Assembly (NCBI GenBank): GCA_037039685.1
Contig: JAWNGF010000003.1
Coordinates: 4,128,571-4,192,570 of the forward strand
Direction of reading: 5' to 3'
Source: Ceratobasidium sp. AG-K
Taxonomy: Eukaryota > Basidiomycota > Agaricomycetes > Cantharellales > Ceratobasidiaceae
DNA: 64,000 nucleotides
Below the pieces are notes generated by a model that saw only the letters and a program-made list of their open reading frames with translations, was not told the origin of the DNA and ran no database searches. The stretch's first letter is position 1. Every line of letters begins with the position of its first letter. This document shows, piece by piece, positions 39,267 through 64,000 of the stretch. The translations under genes were made by a program, and so were the position numbers.

Positions 39267-40478
39267 TTACGGCTTGTTGAAGATACTCTTGGAGCCGGTG
39301 AATAGGAATCCGTCGTAAATAATTGCCCCGGCAATAGCTCCAAAAATAGGGCCTAGCTGAAATTGTCGTTGGCAAGTTCAACGACAGGATTCAATTGCGA
39401 ACTTACAATGGGGACGTACAGCCAATACTGGCTGCGGTAGTTCCAGACTAGTGAACATCGATTATTAGGCGCGATTTACCAAACGAAAATGTATTGGACT
39501 TGCCTTGGCGGCCATATCCGGCCATCCAGCACATCAGGCGAGCACCGAGATCACGAGCAGGATTGAGTACATAGCTAGATTAGTGTGCTTCAACACAACA
39601 CAAATAGAGTATGTCAAGGACTCTAACGTTGACCTACGCAGGTGCATGCCAAGGCAGGCGCCCTCGCCAAGGATGGTGATGAATAAGACAAGTGGAATCA
39701 AGCCGTTGGGAGGGGGGTTATTCCGCTTGTCGGTCATGGCAAGGACCATGATGAGGAGGATGGCAGTAGCTAGAACTTCCGAAAAGAAGCATTGTACTGC
39801 GTATGCACTTTAACGCGACATGTAACAGCAGGTGTCTGCAGATCTGGGATCCTCACCATTTGAAAGATAGTCGACCTAGGAAATGATAATGCTTAGCGAG
39901 CATTCATGCGGTTAGGACGATGCCAACCTACTGGAAAAGTCGTAAACAGCAAAGCAGTTCCTGGTACTGTGCAAATACCCCGTCTGCCTTCGTAGAGGTT
40001 GATCGTGCGGTGGTAGTTTGCATAGACAAGGCCAGCGCCGGTGTATGCACCCAGTGTTTGTGTGAGGATGTAGAAGGGTACTTTTTTCCAAGAGAATCCA
40101 TGGAAAATTGGTTGAGCCAAAGTGACTGATGGGTTGATATGTCTGCCCTGCAAGGTCCATTAGATTGCTCTTGCAAACAACTGCGAAAATCGTTGAACTT
40201 ACTGAAATGCCGCCCAAAACCCATACGCCGAGTGCTGTGCCAATGGCCCACCCAAACGAGATAGAAAGGTACAACTGAATGAGTAAATCAACTGCTTATT
40301 CAGGCTAAAACTTGGAGACTCACTCCTTTCAGACTGTCTGAGACCACAGGATTCTCAGATAAGATAACCTGGCAGTCAATGCCAGCACCAAAAATAAGTA
40401 AAGTCATTGTCTGAATAAGGAACAGCCATCAAAATATGCACCAAATGGAAGAATGATATTACAGCTCACTCCAAGGAA
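39267..40478 (-). pseudogene. aquaglyceroporin, 3' portion, separated from its 5' exons by retrotransposons
   Basis: MIP-family channel for water and glycerol. This portion starts inside a disrupted exon (KFLG, 40470-40478), then TMTLLIFGAGIDCQVILSEN (exon from 40410), LYLSISFGWAIGTALGVWVL, the first pore motif as NPS (HINPSVTLAQP), a membrane segment (VPFYILTQTLGAYTGAGLVY), LIPLVLFITILGEGACLG, the second pore motif NPARDLGARL, and YVPI/LGPIFGAIAGAIIYDGF. NPS in place of the first NPA is known in fungal aquaglyceroporins. The stop at 39267-39269 overlaps a good GTAAGT donor, so a short further exon is possible. Introns are otherwise clean. The gene is broken only by the insertion at 40479-61188; the 5' part is at 61189-61574. 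Confidence 0.9.
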
Positions 40479-40483
40479 CTTGG
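40479..40483. repeat. target-site duplication CTTGG, left copy
   Basis: Five bases directly before the left LTR (TG at 40484), identical to 61189-61193 directly after the right LTR. Five bp is the normal duplication for Ty3/gypsy integrases. Confidence 0.92.
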
Positions 40484-40950
40484 TGTCATAAGCTTCTTCT
40501 TAATGGCTACAAGACAAGCCATGAGTTAGAGTGGACAGCACTAAGACCTAAGTGACCTCTTGAGCCACACCACACTTAAGTGGCTGTAGACTCTCAAGGG
40601 TAGGGGTGGTTCAAAGTGTTACTCAAAAGGGATGTTTCGACAAGACAAAACAAGCTGGGGTTACCAGGCTTGTTGGTCCTCTATATATATTCAGAAAGTA
40701 ACTGAGTCATACAAGACGCAGCCACACAAGTCATAAATACAAGCCAGTCAGGAGTGTCCAAGTGAGTCATACTGCACAGGCAGTCATGACTTGTACAAAG
40801 CACAGCCACATTACACAAAGTAACACAACAACCACAAGAACGTGGCAATGTGGCACAGGAAAAGACAAACAACACCAAACAGAACAACAAACACAAGAGC
40901 AGATGAGCAAGACACAAGACAAGCTTTTTGGAGTGAGCTGGCTCATGACA
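40484..40950 (-). repeat. LTR (left end of block; mosaic of copy 3 and copy 1)
   Basis: Begins TGTCATAAGC and ends GCTCATGACA. Up to about 40560 it matches the copy 3 right LTR (TTAATGGCTAC, GAGTTAGAGTGG, AGTGACCTCT); from about 40564 it matches the copy 1 right LTR (GAGCCACACCACACTTAAGT). Confidence 0.85.
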
Positions 40951-40991
40951 TTACTCCCCCCTAAGAGTCCGTTTGGGGGACTCAAATGGAC

Positions 40992-41771
40992 TCACTGCAC
41001 TGCGCAGTCCTTCCTCTTCTGCAGCATATACTCCTCCAGTCCCTCATCCTCCTCCAAGGTCAGGTCAATGGGATTGAACACCGTATTACCCGGTTTGTCC
41101 AAGAACTTCTCCCATTCTTCCCAAGTTTCCTCTTTTGTCCAGTCCGCCTTGGACCAGTCTGCCTTGGACCAGTCCAACACCCTCTTCTGGGCTTCCACAA
41201 ACTCCTCATCCCACTGTTGCACATCTGGCTCTGCTTCCTTCCATGCTGATATGTTGGTCTCCTCCTTCTTCCACCAGTATGGCGACCACTCAAACTTCTC
41301 CCTCTGGTACCTGCCCCTCTCCATTCTCCAGTTGCTCAGGTCCTTTTTGTAGTTGGCATCCCAAGTGTCGTTCCACCTGGGTCGGAGCGTTGGTGGTCTC
41401 CCCTCATATCCTGGTACCCATTTGCTCAAGTATGCCCCTTCTTGCCCCCACTCAACAACTCCAAGCATGTGGGTGGACAGGAGGACCACCTCTGAGACCT
41501 GGAATGCGGTGCATCCTTGGCAAACAAAGATGTCCTTCTGTTGGAGTTGCATTTGTGTTGGCCACTTTTTCCTGACCCATTGGAATTCCCCCAGGTCTGA
41601 GTGGAGTATGTTGTCCGACGCCCGGAACTGCATTCTTCCTGGGCCTTGCTGCAACCTCTCAAAGACGTAGAGGGCCGCTCTGGAGTCAAGGATCCTTGCT
41701 GTGGCAAAAGCTGGTCTGTCAAGGACGCGGGTGAGGTTGTTGGCGATGGTAGCGCAGGTGATGGCGGGCAT
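40992..41771 (-). CDS. ORF3 of copy 1: tryptophan-rich protein of unknown function
   Basis: 259 codons, uninterrupted, located between the chromodomain end of pol and the 3' LTR, and overlapping the pol 3' end in another frame. Starts MPAITCATIANNLTRVL; has RILDSRAALYVFERLQQGPG, a CQGCTAFQVSEVVLLS block, WRMERGRYQREKFEWSPYWW, then WSKADWSKADWTKEETWEEW and GNTVFNPIDL. It parallels the copy 2 ORF3 along its whole length. A tandem 15-bp repeat (41141-41155 and 41156-41170) adds one WSKAD unit relative to copy 2. No membrane span or signal, so not an envelope-like protein. I do not recognise the family. Confidence 0.8.
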   Translation of the reverse strand: MPAITCATIANNLTRVLDRPAFATARILDSRAALYVFERLQQGPGRMQFRASDNILHSDLGEFQWVRKKWPTQMQLQQKDIFVCQGCTAFQVSEVVLLSTHMLGVVEWGQEGAYLSKWVPGYEGRPPTLRPRWNDTWDANYKKDLSNWRMERGRYQREKFEWSPYWWKKEETNISAWKEAEPDVQQWDEEFVEAQKRVLDWSKADWSKADWTKEETWEEWEKFLDKPGNTVFNPIDLTLEEDEGLEEYMLQKRKDCAVQ

Positions 41772-44700
41772 TGCAAAGAGCAAAAAAGATTTAGAGCGTT
41801 GAGTGAAGAGTGCAATTTGGAGTAGTTGCAAGTTTTGCAGATGGGTTCCTCCTCTCTTGCCCCTTGTCCTTTTATCTTTCCTTTGAAGTTTGCGGGTGCT
41901 GGTGCTTCAGGGTGCTTCTTCAGAAACTTCTGTACTATTTCAGTTAGGTGACCAATGTCTTCTGCCTGTTGTTCTGTGTCATCTTCCTCCCTGTATCCTT
42001 TCCATTGTATTCTATAGAATAATCCCTCCTTTGTCATTTTCCAATCAACAATTCTTTCAACTTCATATTCTTTGTTTCCTTCTTCCGTTACAATCAGTGG
42101 AGGACATGGTTGGTTTTGGTTGAATTCCTTGTCTGTCTTGTACTGACTTAGAAGGTCGATATGAAATACGGGGTACTTTTTCATAGTCGGTGGAAGTTCA
42201 AGTTCGTATGCCTGAGTAGAAATTTTCCTTTTCACAGGGAAGGGTCCAAACTTCTTGTTATCCAGTTTTTTGGACGGTCTGTTAGATTTGATGTCAGGTC
42301 CAAACAACCATACAAGGTCTCCCTCTTGGTATTCCTCTTTGACTTCCTCTTCCTTTATTTGATGTAGTTCCATAGCAGCAATGGCTTCTTTTCTAGTTTC
42401 TTCCCATCTTGTCATTACAGTGTTTGCTTTGGGAACCTCTGTCACTATACTGGATACGTTCCATAAAGGCTCCTTTCCATAGACGAGTTTGAAAGGGCTC
42501 TTTCCTGTTACCCTGTGTTTGTGCAAGTTGTAACAGAATTTGGCGATTGGCAGCAATTCCACCCAATTGTCCTGATGGTGACTGATGAAGGTGTGCAGCC
42601 ATGCTTCTAGCCATTGGTTAACTCGTTCTGTGATTCCATTGGTTTGAGGGTGATACGCAGTGCTAAATGCCAGTGAGACCCCAATTTTCTCATAGATTGC
42701 CTTCAGCAGTTTGCTGTTAAATGTGCTTCCTCAGTCCAATACAGTGCTTTTGGGGAATCCATGAAGTTTCCAGATGTTGCACAGGAATAGCTCTGCTAAT
42801 TCATTTGCCTTGTGCAATTCCTTGCATGGTATGAAATGTGCCATCCTGGAGAATCTGTCCACTACAACAAGAATGCTGTCCATTCCTTTGGATTTAGGGA
42901 GTTTTACAATGAAATCATATGCTATGTCCTCCCATGGCTTGTTTGCTATTTGTAATGGTTTCAGAGGGGTTTGTGTTTTTGTACCCTTTGCTCTTTGACA
43001 TTGTTTGCATGAGTCTATGTATTTGTTGACGCTTTGCTTCATTCCCAGCCAGTAGTAGCATCTCGTGATGAGTTCCAGGGTTCTTGCATGTCCTTGACAA
43101 CCAGCAATGGGTGAGTCATGATGCAGTCGTAATACTGTTAAACGGCAATCCTTGTCTTCCAGCACAACAATCTTTCCTTTGTACCAAAGTAGTCCCTGGC
43201 GTAGTTCATACTCCTTTATGCTGGACAGGATACTTCTAGGAAGCAATTCTTTCTTCTCGCAGAGTTTGATTACCTTATGTAAACCTGGATCTTCTTGTTG
43301 TGCTTTGATGATATTGCTAATGATGTCTTCCCTGAATCCTCCTGCAAAGCCTCGGAATTTTTCATCGGAGATCATGACTTGTTCTGCTGATCAAATCTTG
43401 GCGTGGTTGGCCCTTCTAGACAGTAGGTCAGGCTTTTGTGACAGGATTCCTGGTCGGTATACAATCACAAAGTTATATGACGCCAGGATTTGGTGCCAAC
43501 ATGCGTGTCTCCTGTTGAATGTTTTTGCATCCTTCCAGAACTGTAGGTTTTGGTGATCAGTGTACACCGTAATTTCTTCCTTTGTTCCTTCCAGGTGGAG
43601 TCTCCAATGCGTAAGTGCTTCAATGATAGCCATGAGTTCCTTATCATGTATGTTGTAGTTCATCTGAGCAGGGTTGAAAGATTTGGAAAGAAATGCGATT
43701 GGGTGTAGTCTTCTGTCCTCTTGTCTTTGGGACAGTATTGCTCCCATTGCTACTCCACTAGCGTCCGTCTCAAGGAAGAATGGTTTCTCTGGATTGGGGT
43801 GTTGAAGTACAGGATCCTTGCAAATCATTTCCTTGATACTGTTGAATGCTTCTTGTTCTTCCTCTTCCCATTTCCACGGAAGATCCTTTTGCATCAAGCT
43901 GGTAAGAGGTTTGGCAATCGTGGAGAAACTGGGTACAAATCTCCTATAGAAGTTTGCAAAACCTAGGAATGCTTGTACTTGTTGTACAGTTTTAGGTTCC
44001 TTCCATTCTTTTATTGCCTTGATCTTCTCTTTGTCCATGGATATTCCTTTCTTGCTGATTTTCAGTCCTGTGTAAATGAGTTCTGTGACAAAGAATTCGC
44101 ATTTTGGTAGTTTTGCGAAAAGGTTGTTCTCCTTCAAGATCTGGAGGACTTCTCATAGATCCACTACATGTTGAGACCAGGTTTTTGAGAAGACAAGGAT
44201 GTCACTGATATAAACAATGACACATATGTCAATCTTGTTGTGGAAGATGTGATTCATATATTGTTGAAAAGTGGCTGGTGCATTTTTCAGTCCAAACAGC
44301 ATGACAACGTATTCAAAAAGCCCTTCCTTTGTCCTAAAAGCGGTTTTCCATTCATCTCCTTCCCTGATGCGGATGTTATTGAATCCCATCCTTAGGTCGA
44401 TTTTTGAGAAAATTTTCGCATCCTTTATTTTGTCAAGGAGGTCTTCCATAAGGGGCATGGGGAATCTGTCATCCTTTGTGATGGTGTTAACAGGTTGTAG
44501 GTCCTGTACCAGTCGTAGTCCTCCAAGTGGGCCCGGTTTTTTGACAAAGAAACATGCCGATGCTATTGGGGATTTGCTAGGTCTGATCTTTCCTGCAGCA
44601 AGTTCTTCATTGAGGTATTCTCTCATTGCAATGGATTCAGCTGGGGACAATGGTATAGGTCTTGCTGGCTTTGGGAGTTCAGTGCCTTCCTTGAAGTCAA

Positions 44701-45358
44701 TAGCACAATCATAAGGTTGGAGGTCCGGAATACGCTTGAATTTTTCTTTGCTAAAAACGTCTTCAAATTCCTTCAATTCTTCCAGAATGAGGTCCAAAGT
44801 TCCTTCTTTTCCATGGATTTCCTCCTCTCTCCAAGAGATGCTTTTTTGCTTCCAATCAATGCTAGGGTTCGCGGTTTCCAGCCAGGAAAGTCCTAGGATG
44901 ATGTTTGTGTCACTGGTAGGCATGGCAAAGAATTCTTCTTTAAATGTTTTTCCCTCAACCATGATCTCCATCTGTGCTTTGAAGCGGATTGTGTGAGACA
45001 GCTCCTTTCCTTGCATTCCAATAACTTTTTGAGGAACGGGGAGGTCTCTTAAGGCAATGTTATTCTTCCTGGCCCAAGCAATACTAACAAAATTCTGGGA
45101 GGCTCCAGAGTTGATAAGAGTAGCAATCGGGTCTGTGATTCTGGCAACGTAGCTGTAAACAATTGTGGATTCTTTGTTTGCTCTAAAGTACATTGCTGGT
45201 TCTTTGGTCTCTCCACACACAGTTAGTGGGAGACCCCTTCTTTTTCCAATTCTTCTGAGATTTTTGCTTCTCTTCCTTTTACATTGGGTTTGGTTGTTAT
45301 CCATTCCTTGGATGAGCATTTGAGTGAATGGTGTCCTTCTTGACCACACTTCAGACAT
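41426..45358 (-). pseudogene. copy 1 pol (protease, RT, RNase H, integrase, chromodomain), broken
   Basis: Pol starts in the -1 frame relative to gag (RRGLPLTVCGETKEP, overlapping the gag end). Domains in order: protease (ATLINSGASQNF, catalytic Asp replaced by Asn, 45104-45112), reverse transcriptase (PIASACFFVKKPGPLGGLRL, SKIDLRMGFNNI, VIVYISDILVFS at about 44201-44212, so YxDD is YISD), RNase H (FFLETDASGVAMGA, HPIAFLSKSF), integrase (HARTLELITRCYYW zinc finger, WEDIAYDFIVKLPKSKG) and chromodomain (EYEVERIVDWKMTKEGLFYR, IQWKGY). Stops cut it at about 44153, 43391 and 42731; the last is a TGA in the TVLD-GSTF integrase motif. Not functional as it stands. Confidence 0.85.
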
Positions 45359-47157
45359 TGGTTTGATGCCATCCTTGCCTTGTATACCTTGTCTGGCAAC
45401 CGCTTTGTAGAGGTCTGGCCTGTAGTGGTAGGTTGAGACGCTTTCTTTCCAGTAGAAGTCTTGATTTGTTGCAGTTTTTGATCAATGGAAATTGCTAGAG
45501 TTATCCATTGATTTAGGTTAAGATGCCTTTTGGTACCATCTCCATTGATGAGGGAAAGTTCAAATTGTGCTGACTCTGTCTTGATTTCTGGTTTAAGTCC
45601 TTCCTTGAATTGGTTGATGAGGGCTTCTTCTCCCCAATTTACATCAACCATATGGAAGCAGAACTTGGTTGCATAATTTGCTGCTGAGTTGACTTGTCTG
45701 CATTTTCGAATATTGGCTTCTGCTTTGGCTCTCTTGTTAGGGTTGCTGAATTGTTCCATGAAGTGTGCTTTGAACGTTTCCCACAACACTAGGTTTGGGT
45801 CTGGTATTCCTGTGTTCATGGATCAAAGCAGTACCTGTGCCCAATGGGTGGCGGAGCAGTTGTTTGATTTGAAATTTGCCAGTGCTTCCCTGATTCTTTC
45901 TTGTCCAGAGCTGTATTGGCCCCCAAGCCAAACAAAGTAACTCTCCATCTGGGTGATGAACATTTCTGCTCCTTCTCCTTTCTTTCCATCGAAAGCCTCT
46001 GGTCTAGTGACCTTAGGTTGTCTTGGTGAGCTTCCAACTTGGGAATTGAGTAGGTGCTGAAGTCTTTGCTCTAGGTCATCAATTCTTGTTGATTCGGCTT
46101 CTGGAGCGGATTGTTCGCTAGGCGTGTGTAGTGAGGTCTCATTGACTTCTTCCCTCAAATTGGTGATAGATCTTTCCATTGTTGCCACTCGATTGTTTAA
46201 AGTATTGAATCCTTCCCCAACTTGCTCAATTCCTTGAGTTACTGCTTTGTTCCATTGAACCTGTCCTTGGCGTGTAGTGTCAAGGTCTCGTTGTACATTT
46301 GTTATGAGTCCCTGGGTGTTTGTGACTTTGTTTCAGACAGTATCTACTTCTCTTCCCATGAGGTAGCTGTTGTGTTTGGCATTTTGGGAGGAATTAAGAA
46401 TATCCATAAGGGACTGTTGTATTCCCCTGATCGTGTTGTTGAAAATTTCTTGGTTGTTTGCAAGTACTCTTGCTTCTTGCTCTAGCCCAGTGATTCTTTG
46501 TGTGAGGCCAACTCTTAGTCCTTTGGTGACTCTTAGAGTTGCATTGTGACGTCTGATTAAGAGATCATCCAGTTTGTCTAGGCTCTGGATAGCAGTTCTC
46601 TGTGTGCTAGAAGAACTATTGCTAATAGGTTGTGGGTGAGCAGAGGGTCCTGCTGCTGGGGTTACCAGTGGTCGCAGTCTTTCAGGTAAGGACAAAGGAA
46701 TGGGTCCCATGTTGGTGATTGTTCCTGAAATGCATGGGACTTGTGGTGTGGGTGGAGGGTGAATCAGAATCAGGGAGACCCCTCCATGAGGCTTGGGTTG
46801 GGGAGAAAAATATCCAAACCCAAATCCTTGACAAGGTGTTCTTCCGTCAGACGTAATGGTGATTACTTCTGGTTCTGGTACATAAGTTTCATTGCCAGGT
46901 TCTTGATTTTCCTCCTGGGGGTGTTCTTCAACTAATGATACTTCTGGTTGGAATGTTCCTGGTACTGTACTTTGGCTAGGAACTCTTGATGGGGCTGGAC
47001 CCCCTGCTTCTGTGTGTGCGAGTGCGCTCTCGCTGAGTGATGAGGCTGGTCTAGCGGCTCTACTAGGACCTCTTTGTATACTTGTGGTGGACGCAGGTCT
47101 TGAGACCATGTCTTCTTGTAATCCTTGTTCAACGGGAATTGAGACATTTGTGGACAT
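45223..47157 (-). pseudogene. copy 1 gag, broken by stops
   Basis: Starts MSTNVSIPVEQG at 47157. N-terminal Ser/Pro-rich part, coiled region (LDDLLIRRHNATLRVTKGLR), capsid-like part (PEAFDGKKGEGAEMFITQME) and zinc knuckle CLKCGQEGHHSLKC. A TGA at 46333-46335 follows VDTV and is also present in copy 3 at the same place; copy 2 reads Arg there. A second TGA at about 45820 follows WAQVLL where copy 3 has CGA (Arg). Confidence 0.82.
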
Positions 47158-47163
47158 GGTGTG

Positions 47164-47178
47164 AAGCTTGTTTTGTAA
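47164..47178 (-). promoter_or_regulatory. self-primer-type binding site of copy 1
   Basis: The minus-strand sequence TTACAAAACAAGCTT lies directly after the 5' LTR. Twelve of its bases (ACAAAACAAGCT) are complementary to AGCTTGTTTTGT near the predicted transcript start inside the LTR (47340-47351). No tRNA-type TGG binding site is seen. Confidence 0.7.
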
Positions 47179-47645
47179 TGTTGTAAGCTTCTTCTTGGTT
47201 GTTATGAGACAAGCCAAGATGGAGAGTGGACAGCACTAAGACCTAAGAGACCTCTTGAGCCGCACCACACTTAAGTGGCTGTAGACTCTCAAGGGTAGGG
47301 GTGGTTCAAAGTGTTACTCAAAGGGGATGTTTCAACAAGACAAAACAAGCTGGGGTTACCAGGCTTGTTGGTCCTCTATATATATTCAGAAAGTAACTGA
47401 GTCATACAAGTCGCAGCCACACAAGTCATAAATACAAGCCAGTCAGGAGTGTCCAAGTGAGTCATGCTGCACAGGCAGTCATGACTCGTACAAAGCACAG
47501 CCGTGTTACACAAAGTAACAGAACAACCACAAGAATGTGGCAACGTGGCACAGGAAGAGACAAACAACACCAAACAGAACAACAAACACGAGAGCAGACA
47601 AGCAAGACACAAGACAAGCTTTTTGGAGTGAGCTGGCTCATGACA
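47179..47645 (-). repeat. 5' LTR of copy 1
   Basis: 467 bp, TG...CA ends, with a TATA-rich stretch (CTATATATATTC on the + strand, about 47375-47387) that would act as the minus-strand promoter. Confidence 0.85.
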
Positions 47646-48118
47646 GTATCTACCCCTCTCCATCTTCCAGTCGTTCAGGTCCTTTTTGTAGTTGGCATCC
47701 CAGGCGTCATTCCACTTTGGTCAGAGCGTTGGCAGTCTCCTGTCATAACCTGGTACCCATTTGCTCAAGTACCCTCCTTCCATCCCCCATTCAACAACTG
47801 CAAGCATGTGTGTGGACAGGAGGACAACCTCTGAGACTTGAAATGCAGCGCATCCTTGGCACACAAAGATGCCCTTCCTTGCCAGTTGCATTCTTGTTGG
47901 CCATTTCTTGCCGACCCACTGGAATTCCCCCAGGTCTGAGTGGAGGATGTCATCTGATGCCCGGAATTGCATTCTGCCCAGGCTTTGCTGCGACCTCTTG
48001 AAGACGTAGAGGGCAGCTCCAGCATCCAGGATCCTTGCTGTAGCAAACGCTGGTCTGTTGAGGATGCGGACAAGGTTGTTGGTAATGGTAGTGCGGGAAA
48101 CGGCAGGCATTGCAATGG
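47646..48118 (-). pseudogene. ORF3 fragment of copy 3, cut on both sides by copies 1 and 2
   Basis: Minus-strand remnant (MPAVSRTTITNNLVRILNRP, ALYVFKRSQQSLGRMQFRAS, CQGCAAFQVSEVVLLSTHML, then LSKWVPGY) homologous to the first half of ORF3 in copies 1 and 2. Its 5' side is the copy 2 insertion point; its 3' side ends at the copy 1 LTR. Confidence 0.8.
48114..48118. repeat. target-site duplication AATGG, left of copy 2
   Basis: Matches 55339-55343 on the far side of copy 2. Confidence 0.88.
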
Positions 48119-48576
48119 TGTCGTGAGCCTTGCTCACTCCATTGGACTCGTCTGCATCTCATCCTGTCTCGTGGCTGTGTCTGTTATGTTTTGTTTCTCT
48201 TTTCCCGCCGCGTTGCCACCTCCTTGTGGTTTCTCTGTTACATTGTGTAACGCAGCTGTGCTTTGTACAAGTCATGTCTGTTCATACAGCATGACTCACA
48301 TGGACACTCCTGATTGGTAGACTGTTGTGACTCATGTGGCTGCACCTTGTTTGACTCAGCCTCTCTGTGAATATATATAGAGGACCAACAAGCCTGGTAA
48401 CCCCAGCTTGTTTTGTCTTGTCAAACATCCCCTTTGAGTGACACTTTGAACCACCCCTACCCTCAAGAGTCTACAGACACTTAAGTGTGTTGCAGTTCAA
48501 GAGGTCACTTAGGTCTTAGTGCCATCCACTCTCCATTGCGGCTTGTCTCATAGCCACCAAGAAGAAGCTTATGACA
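48119..48576 (+). repeat. 5' LTR of copy 2
   Basis: TGTCGTGAGC...CTTATGACA. A TATA run (48371-48379) lies about 26-34 nt upstream of AGCTTGTTTTGT (48405-48416), the sequence complementary to the primer-binding site, so the transcript probably begins at or just before it. Confidence 0.88.
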
Positions 48577-48591
48577 TTACAAAACAAGCTT
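48577..48591 (+). promoter_or_regulatory. self-primer-type binding site of copy 2
   Basis: TTACAAAACAAGCTT immediately follows the 5' LTR. ACAAAACAAGCT pairs perfectly (12 bp) with AGCTTGTTTTGT at 48405-48416, near the predicted 5' end of the element RNA. This is the arrangement known for Tf1/sushi self-priming elements. Confidence 0.72.
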
Positions 48592-48598
48592 ATCAATC

Positions 48599-50589
48599 AT
48601 GTCCATTTGGGAGGATGCAGGATCACGCCTCTCAACACCACTGTCAACAAGGAGAGGACCAAGTAGGGCTGCAAGACCCACAAGTTCACTCAACAAGCAG
48701 GATATTGCACAAGCACAGGCTGGAGGGCCAGCAAGGTCTTGCCCACAGAGTCAAGCCTCTATGCCCGGAACATTCGATGACAAAAACACTTCGGTCATCC
48801 AAGAAGAACCTACAATTGTCAGTAGGGAACCAGGAGATATCACCAATGACCCCACACCAGCCATGATTCAAATCCCTATCTCTAACGCAAGTCCTGGACC
48901 TTTGCATCCACTATGGCCCACGGCATTCAGAAGACAGTTCTTTTCCCCGCAGCCTGAAGCTCATGGGGGCATATCCCTCGTTCCCATCAGACCCCCACCG
49001 ACACCCCACATTCCACATGCTCCGCAGGTTCCCCAGATTGGAGGTCCTATCACCAATGCCAGTCCAATCCCAATAAACTCCCAAACCGTGACACCTGTAA
49101 ACCCTGCACCACCATACGTACCACAAGGACATTCCCAGCAACAAACAACTGACGGCCAAGACATACCCGGAAATCTCAGTTCAAGCTCCAGCAGTAGAAC
49201 CGTGATCGGCAATCTTGATGACCTTGATGACCTTCACCTTGGAAGACACAACGCACTCTTAAGGGTCATCAACAGAATGAGAATAGTGGTTGACAGAAGA
49301 CTCAATGGGCTAGAACAGGCCCCCAGGTCCTAGCAAATAACCAACAGATCTTCAATAATTCCATAAATACCCTTCAAGAAACCCTCACAGATATTCTCAA
49401 TGCTGCAAGAACCAGCGAACATAACACTTTCCTAGTCGGACAAGACGTTACCCGGCTTCGGAACAAAGTTACAAACACGCAAGGACTTGTAAACAACGTA
49501 CGCAAAGAACTCAACACCACCAGGCAAGGACAACTTGAATGGAAGGAAGCCGTAACACAAGGCTTGGAAAACCTGCGACAAGTAGGAACCGCCAATACTA
49601 CGCGAATCACCACAATACAAGAAGCTATCAACAATCTTCGAGAGGAAATGGACAAAGCATCATTACATGCGGACAATCCATCTAGACAATCAAACTCTCC
49701 ATCACATCCGGAAGCCAAATCTACTCAAATCGACGAATTGGAACAGAGGCTCCAATGCCTCACAGAAAATCCTAACACCGGCGGGGGATCCCATTGTCCT
49801 AAGGTCACACAACCTGAACCCTTTGACGGAAAAAAGGGGGAAGGAGCCAAAATGTTCATCACACAGATGGAAAGCTATTTTGTTCAATTAGGCGATCAAT
49901 ACAACTCTCACAAAGAACGGATCCGTGAAGCACTTGCCAACTTCAGATCTGAGAATAAGGCGGCAACCCATTGGGCACAAGTATTGCTACAATCACTAAA
50001 CCAGGGAGAAAATAACAAAAACTTAGCCTCATGGGGAAACTTCAAAGCCCATTTCATGGAACAATTCAGCGACCCAAACAAGAAAGCTAAAGCCAAAGCC
50101 GATATCCGGAAATGCAAGCAGAACAATCTGGTAGCAAACTATGCTTTGGAATTCCGATATCTATTAGTCGATGTAAATTGGGGCCAGGAAGCTCTGATCA
50201 ACCAATTCAAGGAAGGACTAAAGCCTGAAGTCAAAACCAAACTAGCCCGATTTGAGTTAACCCTAATTACCGAAGATGGAACGGAGCGGGAACTATCTCT
50301 GGACCGGTGGATCTCAATTGCAATCTCCATTGACCAAAAGCTACAATCCATCAAGAACACCATGGGACAAAAAACAACACCAGCATCCTCCAGCTCCACA
50401 AAAAGGCTTCCCGACGACATATACAAGGCAAGAATTTCATCAAAACATTGCCTAAAATGCGGATCAGACAAGCACCTGCTAGCAAAATGCCCTGAAAAGG
50501 AATGGAAGAAGGAGGAACCAAACCTAAAGGGATGGGAAGGGAAACTTGAGAGCAAACCAGAGTCGGGAAAAGACGAGGTCTCCCTCTAA
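48599..50589 (+). pseudogene. copy 2 gag, one frameshift
   Basis: Opens MSIWEDAGSRLSTPL, Ser/Pro-rich, through RHNALLRVINRMRIV; frame is lost at about 49320-49333 (NGLEQAPRS then stop), while the next frame continues VLANNQQIFNNS as in the other copies. The rest is open: PEPFDGKKGEGAKMFITQME, FKAHFMEQFSDPNKKAKAKA and the CCHC knuckle CLKCGSDKHLLAKC. It ends DEVSL; pol begins in the -1 frame across this end. GGGAAAA (about 50566-50572) sits at the right phase for a -1 slip in this copy. Confidence 0.82.
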
Positions 50590-50591
50590 CT

Positions 50592-53500
50592 GTGTGTGGA
50601 GAGACCAAAGAACCGGTAACAGAAACAATGTACCTTAAAGCAACAAACAAATCAACAGTTGTCTACACAAACGTTACTGGAATCACAGAACCCATTCCCA
50701 CCCTTATCAACTCAGGCGCTTCAAAAAACTTTATTGATATTTCCTGGGCGCGCTCAAACGCCATACCACTAATCAAGCTACCAACACCCAGGAAAGTCAT
50801 TGGGATTCAGGGAAAAGAATTATCACATCAAATCCGATTCAGAGCCAATCTAAAGTTTGACCTGGAAGGGAAAAGCTTTAAGCAGAATTTCTTTGCTATG
50901 CCAACTGGGGATACACGCCTTATCTTAGGACTAGAATGGTTAGAAGAAGCTAACCCAATCATTAACTGGCGCTCAAAAACTATCACATGGAGGACAGACC
51001 AAATCATGGGCAAAACAGGTGAAATTGACAACATACCGGAAGAGTTCAAGGAATTCAAGGAGGTTTTTAGCAAGGAGAAGTTCAAACGCATACCAGACCA
51101 TCAACCATACGACTGTTCTATTGACCTGATAGAAAGAGCGGACCTCCCAAAACCAGCTAGACCAATTCCACTTTCACCTGCGGAATCTGTTGCCCTTTGG
51201 AAGTACCTCAACAAAGAACTAGCCGCAGGAAAGATCCAACCAAGCAAATCACCAGTAGCAGCGGCCACCTTCCTTGTCAAAAAAGGTCAAGACCCAAAGA
51301 ACCCCAAAAAGCCTCCAGAACTTAGGCTGGTGCAACACTTTGGACCAATGAACGAAATAACAAAGGACGACCGATTTCCTATGCCACTTATGGAAGACCT
51401 CTTAGACAAAATCAAGGACGCAAAAATCTTCTCAAAAATAGACCTGCGCATGGGATTCAACAATATCCGCGTTAAGGAAGGTGACGAGTGGAAAACTGCC
51501 TTCTGAACCAAGGAAGGGCTATACGAGTACATCATAATGCCATTCAGACTAAAAAATGCGCCAGCTACTTTCCAACGATACATGAATCACATTTTCCACA
51601 ACCTGATGGACATATGCGTCATCGTCTACATTGATGACATCCTTGTCTTCTCAAAAGATAGAAAGCAGCATGTGGAAGACGTTTGAAAGGTACTCAAGAT
51701 CCTACTGGAGAACAATCTTTTTGCCAAACTCCCTAAATGCAAGTTCTTTGTCAAGAAACTGGTATACACTGGAATCTGCATCACCGAGGAAGGAATCTCT
51801 ATGCAAGAAGAGAAGGTCAAGGCAATCAAGGAATGGAAAGAACCAAAAATGGTCAAACAAGTACAGGCTTTCTTAGGATTCGCAAACTTCTACAGACATT
51901 TCGTTCCAAACTTCAGCAGATTAGCCAAACCCCTCACTACGTTAACAAGGAAAGACACAAAATGGCAATGGGAACAAGAACAACAAGACACCTTCAACAA
52001 CCTCAAATCAGAAATTTGCAAGGAACCTCTATTACAACATCCAGACCCAGAAAAACCTTACATCTTGGAGACAGACGCAAGCAGTGTGGCAATGGGTGCC
52101 ATCCTTTCACAAAAACAGGAAGACGGATTCCTACACCCAATTGCTTTCCTATCTAAATCCTTCAATCAAGCACAGTTGAATTACAATGTGCATGATAAGG
52201 AACTCATGGCTATTGTAGAAGCACTCAAACACTGGCGTTTGCACTTGGAAGGAACAAGAGAACCTATCACAATCTACACCAATCACCGAAATCTGCAATA
52301 TTGGAAGAAGGCAACAACCTTCAACAGACGTCACGCTTGATGGCACCAGATTCTGGCATCATACAACTTTGAAATCATGTACCGACCAGGCATCCTTTCA
52401 ACAAAACCAGATCTACTGTCCAGAAGGAGCGACCATAGCAATATTCCAACAGCAGAACAAGTAATGATCAAGGAAGAACAATTCAGGGGGTTCTCTGGAG
52501 ACATAAAGTTTGATATCATCGCGGACATCAGAGAAGTGCAAGCAGAAGACAAAAGCATTAGCCAAATCATAGAACTATGCAAAAAGAAGGAAGACCTGCC
52601 AAAATCAGTACAAGAAGGAGTCAAGAAGTGCAATTTTGAAGAAAACCTTCTCTGGTTTGATGGAAGAATCTATGTACCGGAAGACAAAGACACAAGGTTG
52701 AAGATCATGAGAATACACCATGACTCACAGATAGCTGGTCACCAAGGACACGCACGCACACTGGAGCTTATCTCAAGGAGATACTACTGGCCAGGATTAA
52801 AATCCATGGTAAACAAATATGTGGACTCATGCAAACAATGCCAGAGGGCTAAAGGAACAAAAACTCACGCACCATTGAAACCACGAGAGATCCCAGAGGG
52901 TCCCTGGGAGGAAATTGCATACGACTTCATTACCAAACTTCCAAAGTCACATGGGAGTGACAGCATATTGGTGGTCGTGGATCAATTCTCTCGCATGGCA
53001 CATTTCATACCCTGCAAGGAAGCAACAACAGCGGAACATTTGGCCGAAATTTTCTTGAAGAATATATGGAAGCTTCATGGTTTTCCACAAAGTATGGTAT
53101 CAGGTAGGGGAACAACGTTCAACAGCAAATTCCTGAAAGCTCTATACGAGAAGATCGACATCACTCCAAGCTTCAGCACAGCATACCATCCTCAAACCGA
53201 CAGAATAACGGAACGAATAAACCAGTGGCTGGAAGCCTGGCTATGAACGTTTGTAAATCACCAACAGGATAATTGGGCCAGACTTCTGCCCATTGCAGAG
53301 TTCTGCTACAATAACCAAAGGCATAGCATCACAGGGAAAACTCCCTTCGAAATCGTCTACGGCAGGGAACCCCTTTGGAATATTTCAACAAGGGAAACAA
53401 CCACTCCAGAAGCAAACAACAAAGCAGACAGTTGGCAGAAGGTGTGGGACAAAGCCAAAGCAGCCATGGAATGGCATAGAAACAAGACGGAGGAAAGACA

Positions 53501-54458
53501 ACCACCCAAATACACGGAGGGAGACCTAGTTTGGCTACATGGGCAAAACATAAAAACAGATTGATCCAGCAAGAAACTTGAAAACAAAAAACACAGCCCA
53601 TTCAAAGTCAAAAAAGCTGTCTCTAGCCACACCTTCAAATTGGATCTTCCAAAGACAATGAAGATACACCCTGTTTTCCATAGCAACCTGCTCAGCCCTT
53701 ACAAGGAAGACAACAATTTCCAAAGAAACCAACCCCAACCTCCACCGGTGAAAACAGAAGAAGGGGAGGAAGAATACAAAGTGGAAAAAATTGTGAACCG
53801 GAAGATGACAGAAAAAGGACTTTTCTATAGGGTCAGATGGAAGGGCTACGACGCAAAGGAAGACACGGAACAACGAGCAGAAGACTTTGGACATCTTGGA
53901 GGAATCATGAAGAAGTTTCTGAAGGAATTCCCAGGAGCCCCAACACCCTCAAACTACAGACCAAAGGGTATAAAAGGGAGAGCTCAGCATGAAGAATACC
54001 CAACTTGCAAAACTTGCTCACTCTCAAACTTGCTTTACTCTCTCTACGCTCTTAACCTCTTTTGTTCACCATGCCTGCCATGTCCCACCAAACCATCACC
54101 GACAACCTCATCCGCGTCCAGGAAGGCCCTGCCTTCCAGACTGCTCACATCCTTGATGCAGGAGCCACACTCTATGTCTTCAAAAGGAAACAGCAACAAC
54201 CAGGACGACTCCTGTTCCGCACCTCCGACAACGTCCTACATTTGGACATGGGCAAACTGGAGTGGGTTGGAAGGAAGTGGCCAACAAAGATGCAGCTGCA
54301 ACGCAAGGACATCTACGTCTGCCAAGGATGCGCCGCCTTCCAGGTCTTGGAGGTGGTGCTCCTCTCCATCCACAAGCTCAATGTTGTCAAGTGGGGGCAA
54401 GAAGGAGCCTATTCAAGTGAGTGGTGCCCAGGGCGCAACAGTCGTCCGCCATCTTTGA
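50592..54458 (+). pseudogene. copy 2 pol, several stops
   Basis: Protease TLINSGASKNFIDISW (Asn for the catalytic Asp at 50709-50711), RT with an intact YIDD (51627-51638), RNase H (ILETDASSVAMGAILSQKQE; TNHRNL where DH is expected), integrase zinc finger HDSQIAGHQGHARTLELISR, core YDFITKLPKSHGSDSILVVV with VSGRGTTFNS (Gly where the second catalytic Asp is expected), and chromodomain EYKVEKIVNRKMTEKGLFYR. In-frame stops lie at about 51504, 51684, 52338, 53244 and 53563. At 51504, 53244 and 53563 TGA replaces an expected Arg codon; at 52338 it replaces a Cys. Confidence 0.85.
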
Positions 54459-54826
54459 GGCCCAGGTGGTCCAACACATGGGACAAAAACTTCGAGACCA
54501 ACTTGGCGGATTGGAGGATGGAGCGGGGACGATACCAGAGGGAGAAGTTCGAATGGAAGCCGTTCTGGTGGCAGGAAAAGGAGGCTGACGTCTCACAATG
54601 GGCAGAGGTGGAACCGGACACTCAACAATGGTCAAAGAAGCATGTGGAGGAGCAGGAGCGGGTAATGGACTGGTCTAAGGCCGACTGGACCGACAAAGAG
54701 ACGTGGGAGAAATGGGAGGAGTACTGCAACAAACCGGGTAACACCGTGTTCAACCCCATAGACCTAATGGAGGAGAAGGAGGACAACCTGGATGGCCTGG
54801 TAGAAAAGGCCAACAAGGACTGCTAG
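54071..54826 (+). CDS. ORF3 of copy 2: tryptophan-rich protein of unknown function
   Basis: 251 codons, no interruption, overlapping the end of pol in a different frame and stopping 54 bp before the 3' LTR. Starts MPAMSHQTITDNLIRV; shows HILDAGATLYVFKRKQQQPG, KWPTKMQLQRKDIYVCQGCA, WRMERGRYQREKFEWKPFWW, DWSKADWTDKETWEKWEEYC and GNTVFNPIDL. Trp- and charge-rich, no membrane helix. It keeps its frame although gag and pol of the same copy do not, and aligns end to end with the copy 1 ORF3. Function unknown; the CxxC (CQGC) and WxxE-type repeats might bind nucleic acid or protein. Confidence 0.82.
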   Translation: MPAMSHQTITDNLIRVQEGPAFQTAHILDAGATLYVFKRKQQQPGRLLFRTSDNVLHLDMGKLEWVGRKWPTKMQLQRKDIYVCQGCAAFQVLEVVLLSIHKLNVVKWGQEGAYSSEWCPGRNSRPPSLRPRWSNTWDKNFETNLADWRMERGRYQREKFEWKPFWWQEKEADVSQWAEVEPDTQQWSKKHVEEQERVMDWSKADWTDKETWEKWEEYCNKPGNTVFNPIDLMEEKEDNLDGLVEKANKDC

Positions 54827-54880
54827 GTCCAGTAGTAAGGTCCCCTCAGGTTCCCCTCACGGACCTTAAAGGGGGAGTAA

Positions 54881-55338
54881 TGTCGTGAGCCTTGCTCACT
54901 CCATTGGACTCGTCTGCGTCTCATCCTGTCTTGTGGCTGTGTCTGTTATGTTTTGTTTCTCTTTTCCCGCCACGTTGCCACCTCCTTGTGGTTTCTCTGT
55001 TACATTGGGTAATGCGGCTGTGCTTTGTACAAGTCATGTCTGTTCATACAGCATGACTCACATGGACACTCCTGATTGGTAGACTGTTGTGACTCATGTG
55101 GCTGCACCTTGTTTGACTCAGCCTCTCTGTGAATATATATAGAGGACCAACAAGCCTGGTAACCCCAGCTTGTTTTGTCTCGTCAAACATCCCCTTTGGG
55201 TGACACTTTGAACCACCCCTACCCTCAAGAGTCTACAGACACTTAAGTGTGTTGCGGTTCAAGAGGTCACTTAGGTCTTAGTGCCATCCACTCTCCATCG
55301 CGGCTTGTCTCATAGCCACCAAGAAGAAGCTTACAACA
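54881..55338 (+). repeat. 3' LTR of copy 2
   Basis: 458 bp, TGTCGTGAGC...ACAACA, preceded by the polypurine tract AAAGGGGGAGTAA. Differs from the 5' LTR at scattered bases (for example the last 8 bases), so insertion is not very recent. Confidence 0.88.
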
Positions 55339-55343
55339 AATGG
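55339..55343. repeat. target-site duplication AATGG, right of copy 2
   Basis: Equal to 48114-48118. Removing copy 2 and one AATGG joins the copy 3 pol end (right) to the copy 3 ORF3 start (left) in the order seen in copies 1 and 2. Confidence 0.88.
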
Positions 55344-55379
55344 ACAGGAAAGGTTGAGATAGTAGAGCGATGGGTGGCT

Positions 55380-58300
55380 TTGGGAGTAGTTGCAAGTTTT
55401 GCAGATGGGTTCCTCCTCTCTTGCCCTTTGTCCTTTTACCTTTCCTTTGAAATTTGTGGGTGTTGGTGCTTCAGGGTGTTTCTTCAGAAACTTCCACACT
55501 ATTTCAGTTAGGTGGCTGACGTCCTCAGCCTGTTGTTCCGTGTCATCTTCCACCCTGTACCCTTTCCATTGTATCCTATAGAATAATCCCTCCTTTGTCA
55601 CTTTCCAATCAACAATCATTTCTACTTCATATTCTTTGCTTCCGTCTTCCGCCGCAATCGGCGGAGGACGTGGTTGGTTCCAATTGAATTCCTTGTCTGT
55701 CCTGTACCAGCTTAGAAGATCAATATGAAATACGGGGTACTTTTTCATTGTCAGCAGAAGTTCAAGTTTGTATGCATGTGAGGAAATTTTCTTTTCACTA
55801 GGAAGGGTCCAAACTTCCTGTTATCCAGCTTTTTGGATGGACTATTTGATTTGATGTCTGGTCCAAATAACCATACGAGATCTCCTTCCTGGTACTCCTC
55901 CTTGATGTTTTCTTCCTTTATTTGATGTAGTTCCATAGCGGTGATAGCCTCTTTCCTAGCTTCTTCCCATCTTGTCATTACAGTGTTTGCTTTGGGAACT
56001 TCTGTCACTACACTGGATACATTCCATAAAGGTTCCCTTCCATAGACAAGTTCAAAAGGGCTCTTTTCTGTTACCCTTTGCTTGTGCATGTTGTAACAGA
56101 ATTTGGCAATAGGCAGTAATTCCACCCAATTGTCCTGATGGTGATTGATGAAGGTGCGCAGCCAAGCTTCTAGCCATTGGTTAACTTGTTCTGTAATTCT
56201 GTCTGTTTGAGGGTGGTATGCAGTACTAAAAGCAGGTGAGACCCCAATTTTCTCATAGATTGCTTTCAGCAGTTTGCTGTTAACAGTGCTTCCTTGGTCT
56301 GATACAGTGCTTTTGGGAAATCCGTGAAGTTTCCAGATGTTGCACAGGAATAGTTCTGCTAATTCATTTGCCTTGTGCGACTCCTTGCATGGTATGAAAT
56401 GTGCCATCCTGGAGAATCTGTCCATTCCCTTTGATTTAGGGAGTTTTACAATGAAGTCATACGCTATGTCCTCCCATGGCTCATTTGCAATTTGTAACGG
56501 TTTCAAAGTAGCTTGCATTTTTGTACCTTTTGCTCTTTGACACTGTTCGCATGAATCTATGTATTTGTTGACACTTTGCTTCATTCCTGGCCAGTAGTAG
56601 CATCTCAAAACAAGTTCCAGGGTTCTTGCATGTCCTTGATGACCAGCGATAGGTGAGTCATGATGCATCCTCAATACCGTTAAATGGCAACCCTTGTCTT
56701 CTGGAACTACAATCTTTCCTTTGTACCACAGTAGTCCTTTGCATAGTTCATAATCCTGTACACTGGACAGAATACTCCTAGGTAGCAATTCTTTCTTCTT
56801 GCAGAGTTCAATTACTCCTTGTAGACCTGCATCTTCTCGTTGTGCTTTGATAATATCACTAATGATGTCTTCCTTGAATCCTCCTGCAAAACCTCGGAAT
56901 TTTTTGTTGGCAATCATGACTTGTTCTGCTGACAGAATTTTGGCATGGTTGGCCCTTCTAGACAGTAGGTCTGGTTTTTGCAAGAGGATTCCTGGCCAGT
57001 ATACAATCACAAAGTTGTAAGAAGCGAGTATTTGGTGCCAGCATGTGTGTCTCCAATTGAACGTTTTTGCATCTTTCCAGAACTGGAGGTTTCTGTGGTC
57101 TGTGTATATTGTGATTTCCTCCTTTGTCCCTTCCAGGTAAAGTCTCCAATGTGTGAGTGCTTTGATGATTGCCATAAGTTCCTTATTGTAGATGTTGTAG
57201 TTCATCTGCGCCAGGTTGAAGGATTTGGAAAGGAACGCAATTGGGTGTAGCCTTCCGTCCTCTTGTCTCTGGGACAGTATTGCCCCCATTGCTACTCCAC
57301 TAGCATTGGTCTCAAGGAAAAACAGCTTCTCTGGATTGGGGTGTTGGAGTACAGGATCTTTGCAAATCGTTTCCTTGATACCTTCGAATGCCTTCTGTTC
57401 TTTGTTCCCCCATTTCCATGGAAGATCCTTTTGTGTCAATCCCGTGAGAGGTTTAGCTATCGCAGAGAAACTGGGTACAAATCTCCTATAGAAGTTTGCA
57501 AAACCTAAGAATGCTTGCACTTGCTTCACCATCTTTGGTTCCTTCCATTCCTTTATGGCCTTGATTTTTTCTTTGTCCAGGGATATACCCTCCTTGCTGA
57601 TCTTCAGTCCCGTGTAAATGAGTTCTGAGACAAAGAACTTGCATTTTGGTAGTTTTGCAAAAAGGTTGTTCTCCTTCAGGATTTGGAGTACTTCTTGTAG
57701 GTCCACCACATTTTGAGAACAGGTTTTCAAAAAAACAAGGATGTTGTTGATATAAACAATGACACACACATCAATTTTGTTGTGGAAGATGTGATTCATA
57801 TATTGTTGAAATGTGGCTGGTGCATTTTTTAGTTCAAACGGCATGACAATGTATTCAAATAGTCCCTCTTTTGTCCTGAACGCAGTCTTCCATTTGTCTC
57901 CTTCCCTGATGTGGATGTTATTGAATCCCATTCTTAGGTCGATTTTTGAGAAGATCTTTGCATCCTTTATTTTGTCAAGCAGGTCTTCCATAAGGGGCAT
58001 AGGGAATCTGTTGTCCTTTGTGATGGCATTAACGGGTCGTAGGTCTTGTACCAATCGTAGTCCCCCCAGTGGGCCTGGTTTTTTGACAAAAAAACATGCT
58101 GATGCTATTGGGGACTTGCTATACCTGATCTTTCCTGTGGCAAGTTCCTCATCAAGGTACTCTCTCATTGCAATGGATTCGGCCAGGGACAAAGGTATAG
58201 GCCTTGCTGGCTTTGGAAGTTCCGCACCTTCCTTGAAATCGATAGCACAATTGTAAGGACGGTGATCCGGAATGCGTTTGAACCTTTCATTGCTAAAAAC

Positions 58301-58927
58301 GTCCTCAAACTCCTTCAATTCTTCCAGGATAAGGTCCAAGGTGCCTTCTCTTCCGTGTATTTCCTCATTTCTCCAAGAGATGCTTTTTTGCTTCCAATCA
58401 ATGCTAGGGTTCGCGGTTTCTAGCCAGGTAAGTCCTAGGATGATGTTTGTGTCACCAGTAAGCATGGCAAAGAATTCTTCTTTAAATGTTCTCCCTTCAA
58501 CTGTGATCTTCATTTGTGCTTTGAAGCGAATTGTGTGTGACAGCTCCTTTCCTTGTATTCCAATAACCTTTCAAGGAACAGGGAGATCACTCAAGGCAAT
58601 GTTATTCTTCCTGGCCCAAGCAATATCAACAAAATTCTGGGAGGCTCCAGAGTTGATTAGAGTAGCAATCAGGTCTGTGATTCTGGCAACATAGCTGTAA
58701 ACAATTGTGGATTCTTTGTTTGCTCTAAAGTACATTGCCAGTTCTTTGGTCTCTCCACAGACAGTTAGTGGGAGACCCCTTCTTTTCCTGATTCTTCTAT
58801 GATTGTTACTTCTCTTCCTTTTACGTTTGGTTTGGTTGTTATCCATTCCTTGGACAAGCATTTGAGTGAGCGGTGTCCTTCCTGACTGCACTGCAGACAT
58901 TGGTTTGATGCCATCCTTGCCTTGCAT
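55380..58927 (-). pseudogene. copy 3 pol, mostly open but inactive
   Basis: A single open stretch of 920 codons (55751-58513) covers RT to the integrase C-terminus, the longest pol remnant of the three. Motifs: PVNAITKDNRFPMPLMEDLL, SKIDLRMGFNNI, YINN at 57743-57754 where YIDD is expected (both Asp lost), FFLETNASGVAMGAILSQRQ (Asn for the RNase H Asp), HDSPIAGHQGHARTLELVLR, YDFIVKLPKSKG with a short deletion after it, STVSDQGSTVNSKLLKAI. A TGA near 58571 cuts off the protease (ATLINSGASQNF, 58646-58654). A one-base slip near 55790 shifts the chromodomain (EYEVEMIVDWKVTKEGLFYR) into another frame. Confidence 0.85.
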
Positions 58928-60699
58928 ACCTCATCTGGCAACCGTTTTGTAGAGGTCTGGCCAGTGGTGGCTGGTTGGGCTGTCCTCTTCCCCGTGGATG
59001 ACTTGATCTGTTGTAGTTTTTGATCAATAGAAATTGCAAGGGTGATCCACTGATTAAGGTTAAGACGCCTTTCGGTTCCGTCCTTGTTGATAAGGGAGAG
59101 TTCAAATCGTGCCAATTCTGTTTTGATTTCCAGCTTGAGTCCTTCCTTGAAATGGTTGATAAGAGCTTCTTCCCCCCAATTTACATCAACCATACAGAAT
59201 TGGAATTCCGTCGCATAATTAGCTGCCAAGTTGATCTGCTTGCATTTCTGGATATTGGCCTCTGCTTTGGCTTTCTTGTTAGGATCACTGAATTGTTCCA
59301 TGAAGTGTGTCTTGAATGTTTCCCATGACATCAGGTTCAGGTCCAGAACTCCATTGTTCATAGATCGGAGTAACACCTGTGCCCAATGGGTAGCGGACCG
59401 GTTATCTGATTTGAAATTTGCCAATGCTTCTCTATTCTGTTCTTGTCCAGAACTGTATTGGTTGCCCAACATGACAAAGTAACTTTCCATCTGAGTGATG
59501 AACATTTCTGCTCCTTCTCCCTTTTTTCCATCAAATGCTTCTGGTCTAGTGACCTTGGGTTGTCTTGGTGAGCTTCCATCTTGGGAGTTGAGCAGGCGCT
59601 GAAGTCTTTGCTCTGGATCATCAATTCTTGTAGATTCGGCTTCTGGTGCGGATCGTTTGCTGGGTGCATGTAGTGAGATTTCATTGACTTCTTCCCTCAG
59701 GTTGCTAATGGATTGTTCCATAGTTGTTACTTGTTCATTTAACAATGTGAATCCCTCCCTAACTTGCTTGATTCCTTGAGTGACTGCTTTGTTCCACTGA
59801 AGCTGTCCTTGGCATGTAGTGTCAAGGTCTCATTGTACATTTGTTACAAGTCCTTGGGTGTTTGTGACTTTGTTTCAGACAGTCTCTACTTCTCTTCCTG
59901 TGAGGTAACTGTTATGTTTGGCATTATGGGCAGAATTAAGAATATTTGTGAGGGACTGTTGTATTCCCCTGATAGTATTGTTGAAAACCTCTTGGTTGTT
60001 TGCTAGTACTCTTGCTTCTTGCTCTAGTCCAGTGATTCTTTGTGTAAGGCCAACTCTTAGTCCTTCAATAACTCTTAGAGTTGCATTGTGGTGTCTGATC
60101 AGGAGGTTGTCTAGTTTGTCTAAGCTCTGGATGGCAGTTCTTTGTGTACTAGAAGAAGTATTGCTAATGGGTTGTGGGTCCGCGGAGGGTCCTGCTGCTG
60201 GGGTTACCGGTGATTGTGGTCTCTTGGGTAGAGACAAAGGAATAGGACCCATGTTGGTGATTGTTCCCAAGATGCAGGGAACTTGTGGTGTGGGTGGAGG
60301 GCAAATCAGAATCAGGGAGACCCCTCCATGGGGCTTGTGTTGGGGAGAAAAATAGCCAAACCCAAATCCCCAACAAGGCGTTCTTCCATCAGACGTAATG
60401 GTGATTACTTCAGGTGCCGGTACATAAGTTTTGTTGCTGGGTTCTTGATTCTCTTCTTGGGGATGTTCTTTGACTAATGATACTTCTGGTTGGAATGTTC
60501 CTGGTACAGTACTTCGGCTAGGAACTCTTGATGGGGCTGGACCCCCTGCTTGTGCATGTGCGAGTGCACCTTTGCTGAGTGATGAGGCTGGTCTAGCAGC
60601 TCTACTAGGACCTCCTTGTATGCTTGTGGTGGATGCAGGTCTTGAGACCGTGTCTTCTTGTAGTCCCCATTCAACAGGTGTTGAGTTGTTTGTGGACAT
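58765..60699 (-). pseudogene. copy 3 gag
   Basis: Starts MSTNNSTPVEWGLQED at 60699. Same layout as copy 1: Ser/Pro-rich N-part, TGA after EVETV (about 59875), coiled and capsid-like parts (PEAFDGKKGEGAEMFITQME), knuckle CLQCSQEGHRSLKC, end SGKEGVSH. The capsid half (58765-59745) is open. Confidence 0.8.
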
Positions 60700-60720
60700 G
60701 GTGTGAAGCTTGTTTTGTAA

Positions 60721-61188
60721 TGTCATAAGCTTCTTCTTAATGGCTACAAGATGAGCCACGAGTTAGAGTGGACAGCACTAAGACCTAAGTGACCTCTTGA
60801 ACTGCAACACACTTAAGTGTCTGTAGGCTCTTGAGGGTAGGGGTGGTTCAAAGTGTCACTCAAAAGGATGGTAAGACAAGACAAAACAAGCTGGGGTTAC
60901 CAGGCTTGTTGGTCCTCTATTTATATTCAGAAAGCGGCCAAGTCATACAAGGTGCAGCCAAACAAGTCATACATACAAGCCAACCAGGAGTGTCCGTGTG
61001 AGTCATGCTGTGCAGGCAGTCATGACTCATACAAAGCACAGCTGTGTTACACAATGTAACAGAACAACCACAAGGACATGGCAACGCAGCACAGGAAATG
61101 ACAAAACAACAAACAAACAGAACAACACATGAGAGAGCAGAAGGGCAAGGTGCAAGGCGAGTCTAGTGGAGGGAGCTGGCTCACGACA
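60721..61188 (-). repeat. 5' LTR of copy 3 (right end of block)
   Basis: 468 bp, TGTCATAAGC...CTCACGACA, abutting CTTGG. It contains ACAAAACAAGCT (60881-60892), the complement partner of the primer-binding site at 60706-60720. Confidence 0.88.
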
Positions 61189-61193
61189 CTTGG
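61189..61193. repeat. target-site duplication CTTGG, right copy
   Basis: Partner of 40479-40483; part of the interrupted aquaglyceroporin exon. Confidence 0.92.
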
Positions 61194-62722: not shown

Positions 62723-62732
62723 TTACCCCCTC

Positions 62733-63930: not shown

Positions 63931-64000
63931 CTTGAGACCAATTCCAAAGTTCTTGCCTGTCCAGGATGCCCTGCTGTAATATTGTCATGGCGCGATTCCA

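Follow-up and report, generated by a model that had tools for sequence, protein, structure and literature searches.

The question raised by this locus is how a 20,705 bp block of retrotransposons came to lie inside a 37-nt exon of an aquaglyceroporin gene, and whether that gene was still working when it was struck. The window, a stretch of 64,000 nucleotides at positions 4128571-4192570 of contig C3, belongs to a genome assembly of 53.6 Mb in 17 contigs, and the closest named relatives of two of its genes are Rhizoctonia and Ceratobasidium proteins, the best match of each gene, named or not, being 82% and 73% identical. The reading to which we assign a probability of about 85% is that an element, X, hit a duplicate gene, W, whose constraint was weakening, that two further elements, Y and D-E, became nested in X, that the left long terminal repeats (LTRs) of X and Y recombined, and that W is now a pseudogene, with a paralogue on contig C1 presumably functional.

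MIP channels are recognized by a MIP domain together with two NPA-type boxes, the second of which reads NPARD. W, an aquaglyceroporin gene on the minus strand with eleven exons spread over 61538 to 39128, carries a PF00230 match over the cut-off at C3:4168574-4168723, inside exons 3-11, and its boxes read NPS and NPARD. Alignment to the C1 paralogue placed exon 1 at 61282-61538 (the first-pass annotation had begun it at 61574, upstream of the start codon at 61538 that aligns to the paralogue), the first 28 nt of exon 2, including one CTTGG copy, at 61189-61216, its final 9 nt at 40470-40478, and exons 3-11 at 39128-40410, where the PF00230 match also lies. On this minus strand exons 3-7 occupy 40410-40324, 40274-40203, 40147-39932, 39875-39857 and 39796-39638, and exons 8-11 occupy 39574-39504, 39447-39407, 39356-39271 and 39215-39128. 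The ten introns delimited by the C1 guide have an AG acceptor in 10/10 cases and a GT donor in 9/10, the tenth being GC.

The C1 paralogue (L047) has an eleven-exon structure with an uninterrupted 37-nt exon 2 and an open frame. The database protein P0001, 82% identical to W and the top match among the best 120 of 2169, matches the protein of the C1 copy at all but one of 370 residues. Another aquaglyceroporin copy, K2 (L045/L046), lies next to W in the same orientation at C3:4197931-4206805, beyond the end of the window. On contig C13, several MIP copies occur within 243401-371414 in near-identical blocks spaced by ~68-75 kb, some of them inverted, reflecting either recent segmental duplication or assembly duplication.

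That the block splits one exon of one gene, in phase, was proposed in the first-pass annotation and is borne out by the paralogue, as both halves fit exon 2 of C1: the two parts of W were aligned to it separately, and the 28 nt and the 9 nt meet at one base. Exon 1 alone, searched against the genome, gave 11 matches (11/11 candidates scored), seven at E 1e-3 or better and four weak (E 0.05-0.06), every one of which lies beside a MIP locus. The perfect CTTGG duplication described directly outside the first and last LTR was likewise recovered, with a left copy at 40479-40483, containing the AAG of codon 89, and a right copy at 61189-61193, where codon 89 is AAG on the minus strand; the copies abut the TG (40484) and the CA (61188) of the block without an intervening base. 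The TG...CA ends, the perfect CTTGG and the whole 37-nt exon in the C1 paralogue identify an LTR-retrotransposon insertion. Identity of a random 5-bp pair has a probability of 1/1024, and given CTTGG together with complementary exon halves split at that very base, coincidence can be taken as negligible. An assembly artefact that joined two unrelated pieces is hardly credible for the same locus: the structure is known from the assembly alone, and the block family is repeated, LTR C having at least 42 genome matches (40/1560 candidates scored), but a misjoin yields neither a perfect duplication nor complementary halves of a 37-nt exon.

The layout of the block was resolved by self-comparison, a search for LTR borders and a domain search. 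The block as a whole runs from TG to CA over 40484-61188 and, as first described, is a nested retrotransposon block at a single site in the gene, made up of three elements, X, Y and D-E, all from a single Ty3/gypsy family. From left to right it comprises, on the minus strand, LTR A, a chimera (40484-40950), the internal region of Y with protease, RT, RNase H, integrase and chromodomain pieces (40951-47178), LTR B, which is the 5' LTR of Y (47179-47645), and a piece of the 3' region of X (47646-48118), from which ~356 bp and the adjoining LTR have gone on the left. There follows on the plus strand the guest D-E (48119-55338), whose LTRs are 97.8% identical and which is flanked by an AATGG duplication (48114-48118 and 55339-55343); the remaining X internal region with gag, RT-RNase H-integrase and chromodomain (55339-60720) and LTR C, the 5' LTR of X (60721-61188), complete the block, again on the minus strand. 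Because both Y and D-E sit inside X, X is the older element. The left copy of the Y target duplication is lost.

Assignment to Ty3/gypsy follows from the domain order in X, where RT and RNase H precede integrase: the ORF at 55751-58513 contains RT at 143-305, RNase H at 368-499, the integrase zinc finger at 609-662 and an rve match at 697-768 that is below its cut-off. The elements are also chromoviruses, which have a chromodomain following the integrase core, as PF00385 exceeded its cut-off in Y (41426-42562), X (55278-55748) and D-E (53640-54458). The same holds (62733-63818) for H-I, an element of another chromodomain LTR family upstream of W, between W and K2, which runs on the minus strand from 62308 to 64000 and onward to C3:4197823 (full span C3:4190878-4197823) with a CCTTT duplication. 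The family of X, Y and D-E is large in the genome, and it includes F-G, a 7.2-kb element that splits exon 8 of K2 with an ATTGA duplication. In X, Y, D-E and F-G (4/4 tested), the 5' LTR is followed by 12 nt complementary to the LTR of the same element, just 3' of a stretch resembling TATATATA or TATAAATA; at the one end of H-I examined, no such 12-nt complementarity was found. This site resembles a self-priming site and would mark a basidiomycete family with that feature. The Tf1/sushi type is defined by self-priming, in which the primer site pairs with the beginning of the transcript that the element itself yields, and as PMC2864245 lists the Tf1 clade as ascomycete-specific, the self-priming-like site is no proof of Tf1 membership. 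The elements otherwise agree with fungal chromoviruses in their Gag, protease, RT, RNase H and integrase pieces, in the chromodomain (X, Y, D-E and H-I) and in their TG...CA ends and 5-bp duplications, and the 12-nt site is reminiscent of self-priming; the placement is one by domains.

Three LTRs in the same orientation between one pair of duplications call for an explanation, and LTR A suggests one. Its sites 1-75 are like C, the LTR of X, at 12/14 informative positions, and its sites 76-467 are like B, the LTR of Y, at 54/59 (Fisher 2.6e-8 for a switch at ~75; best-breakpoint statistic matched in 0/20000 shuffles; three sites resembling neither B nor C dropped). An LTR that is part X and part Y is what is expected if the left LTRs of X and Y recombined. 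Moreover, X sequence resumes after LTR B at the equivalent of Y position 41307, and therefore 356 bp of X are missing. LTR A thus probably became a mosaic through LTR-LTR recombination, via a four-LTR stage.

The course of events would then have been as follows. X would have integrated into exon 2 of the duplicate W and duplicated the 5 bp CTTGG; its relatives Y and D-E would have inserted into it later; and the left LTRs of X and Y, lying in the same orientation, would have recombined, removing an LTR along with ~356 bp of X and leaving a chimeric outer LTR that retains the original X edge and the target duplication. Such recombination would explain why CTTGG stands beside LTRs merely 85.5% identical (A and C), and nesting followed by it why the duplication is kept around three LTRs. 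We infer the order of Y and D-E, that W had lost its function or part of it by the time X arrived, and the function of C1.

Known tandem or complex elements with shared LTRs, as portrayed in PMC1950507 and PMC11899658 for plants, also combine three LTRs of the same orientation, in the arrangement LTR-internal-LTR-internal-LTR, with one outer duplication, and arrival of all three LTRs as a single tandem element, by template switching or another one-insertion route, was weighed for this reason. PMC11899658 admits, as the product of one insertion, a tandem whose LTRs are 85-89% alike, with which the 85.5% of A and C is compatible. Yet highly similar outer LTRs are expected according to PMC1950507, and LTR A switches at ~75 bp; the internal regions of X and Y are ~86% identical by self-comparison, the values for the two rice cases being 94% and 99%; 356 bp of X are gone at the LTR B junction; and the chimera here is the outer LTR, not an inner one as in the elements that these sources treat. 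Arrival as one tandem element is thus quite improbable, and nesting with later recombination of the left LTRs is preferred.

Two specific forms were set aside: a template-switch complex element, in view of the outer LTRs that are 85.5% identical with a switch at ~75 bp, and recombination between two adjacent independent insertions, which is recognized by the lack of a flanking duplication, CTTGG being present on both sides. The pair A and C was likewise rejected for dating, since A is a chimera and its 14.5% difference from C is no age; more generally, the two outermost LTRs in a nest should not be paired for dating.

What remains datable are the LTR segments of single elements, which are uncalibrated and give relative divergence, not years. 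The X segment differs at 3/75 sites (95% CI 0.8-11%), and the LTR pairs differ at 16/392 sites in Y, 12/458 in D-E, 12/414 in H-I and 21/463 in F-G. At ~4%, the divergence gives no indication that the insertion is very recent. It also exceeds the SNP level of Rhizoctonia solani AG8, another species, for which PMC4014442 reports ~1 SNP per 70 bp within it. W carries 108 specific changes at 721 sites; if half the LTR divergence is taken, about 15 of these would be expected after the insertion (10-40 over the range tried), and therefore over half of the divergence of W had arisen by the time of the insertion, whichever value in that range is used.

The decay of W itself points in the same direction. 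The channel had been described as free of further defects, a view that does not hold. The end of exon 7 with its donor (39633-39650, minus strand) is one exon base short of the paralogue in the C1 alignment, and with the paralogue splice sites this 1-nt deletion shifts the frame ahead of the second NPA box and leads to a stop in exon 8. This deletion, known from the assembly sequence, may have followed the insertion or may reflect a sequencing error, and a weak GT four bases on from the donor could in principle restore the phase. The exon 8 donor is GCAAGT (39498-39503, minus strand); K2 likewise has GC there, and C1 and the three C13 loci examined have GT. As GC donors can be functional, it is a weak point as a defect. 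Near-invariant residues are changed at 8/78 positions in W, 16/74 in K2 and 0/78 in C1, and no single one of the 120 homologues has more than 6, a panel that includes P0001 and is thereby biased in favour of C1. Four of the replacements, E89K, G147R, R204C and P288A, are common to W and K2 with identical codons.

Codon 89 falls within the target duplication: AAG, giving Lys in place of a near-invariant Glu, stands in both CTTGG copies and in K2. Since both duplication copies have AAG, E89K predates the insertion unless it arose twice, though E89K alone is no proof of function loss. Nonsynonymous and synonymous changes stand at 70:38 on the W branch and 5:14 on C1 (Fisher p 0.0022), counted at sites with the same state in C1 and the two C13 outgroups, a choice that favours constrained sites and for which the omega calculation corrects; the C13b outgroup row, with one in-frame stop, was retained. 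Omega is 0.31 on the W branch and 0.077 on C1, and the branch lengths are 0.195 and 0.056. The insertion, the 1-nt deletion and the omega of 0.31 against 0.077 thus mark W as a predicted pseudogene. An omega of 0.31 and not 1 means that W spent part of its past under constraint, and up to the insertion it may still have worked as a divergent channel.

The opposite view, that the insertion recently disabled a working aquaglyceroporin and that a second nucleus or a different strain has the allele uninterrupted, had been the first-pass interpretation and is now unlikely. It draws on eleven recognizable exons, a complete set of acceptors, nearly intact donors, a single frameshift and an omega below 1. 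Against it are the AAG at codon 89 that K2 shares with the two CTTGG copies, the 10-40 of 108 W-specific changes expected after the insertion, and an LTR divergence above the AG8 level of PMC4014442 cited above, which is that of another species. An uninterrupted W allele was also found neither in the assembly (12/12 candidates scored; second genome search 40/558 scored) nor among the best 120 of 2169 database protein matches. Under the preferred reading, W would have been under weakened constraint before X arrived and would be a pseudogene now, and the C1 copy with its open frame presumably carries the function. A search of one literature library for retrotransposon insertions in aquaglyceroporins found none, and we do not claim that structures of this kind are missing from print. 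The case of W is an ordinary fate of a duplicate gene, cleanly resolved: the duplications, the chimeric LTR and a substitution caught in the target duplication together let the events be ordered, and a spectacular gene-splitting insertion may strike a gene already losing constraint.

With H-I discounted, ~0.9 kb would separate the end of K2 from the beginning of W (by arithmetic), and W and K2 therefore look like a tandem pair; adjacent to each other, both are decaying and both are interrupted by a retrotransposon. Decay is greater in K2, whose exon 1 contains a TGA and which has lost the AG before exon 9. A tree of seven of nine rows (C4_3055k and C1_7935k were excluded, with <700 aligned sites) grouped W with K2 at a support of 95 when all sites were used and of 72 with transversions alone. 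Site patterns numbered 30 for W with K2 against 18 and 6 for the other groupings on all sites; without C>T/G>A they numbered 9 for W with K2, 8 for W with C1 and 1 for the remaining grouping. The dS between W and K2 (1.01) is larger than that between W and C1 (0.83). W and K2 are thus likely, but not firmly, sister copies; given the support of 72, the 9 against 8 patterns and the larger dS, changes that they share could be partly parallel.

Both copies changed preferentially at CpG. C>T/G>A changes fell on 28/98 CpG and 32/294 other C positions in W, and on 34/96 and 38/288 in K2. CpG hypermutation is reported in Rhizoctonia solani AG8 (PMC4014442), and W resembles it in its CpG-biased C-to-T decay; W gives no evidence of an active RIP-like process, and deamination of methyl-CpG would suffice. 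It may be proposed, as a conjecture that we consider rather doubtful, that duplicates in Ceratobasidiaceae are CpG-methylated, decay by C-to-T change and attract chromodomain Ty3 elements, serving as landing pads. Five insertions, two of them nested in another, lie in or beside the decaying pair of W and K2, and the dispersed C1 copy is uninterrupted.
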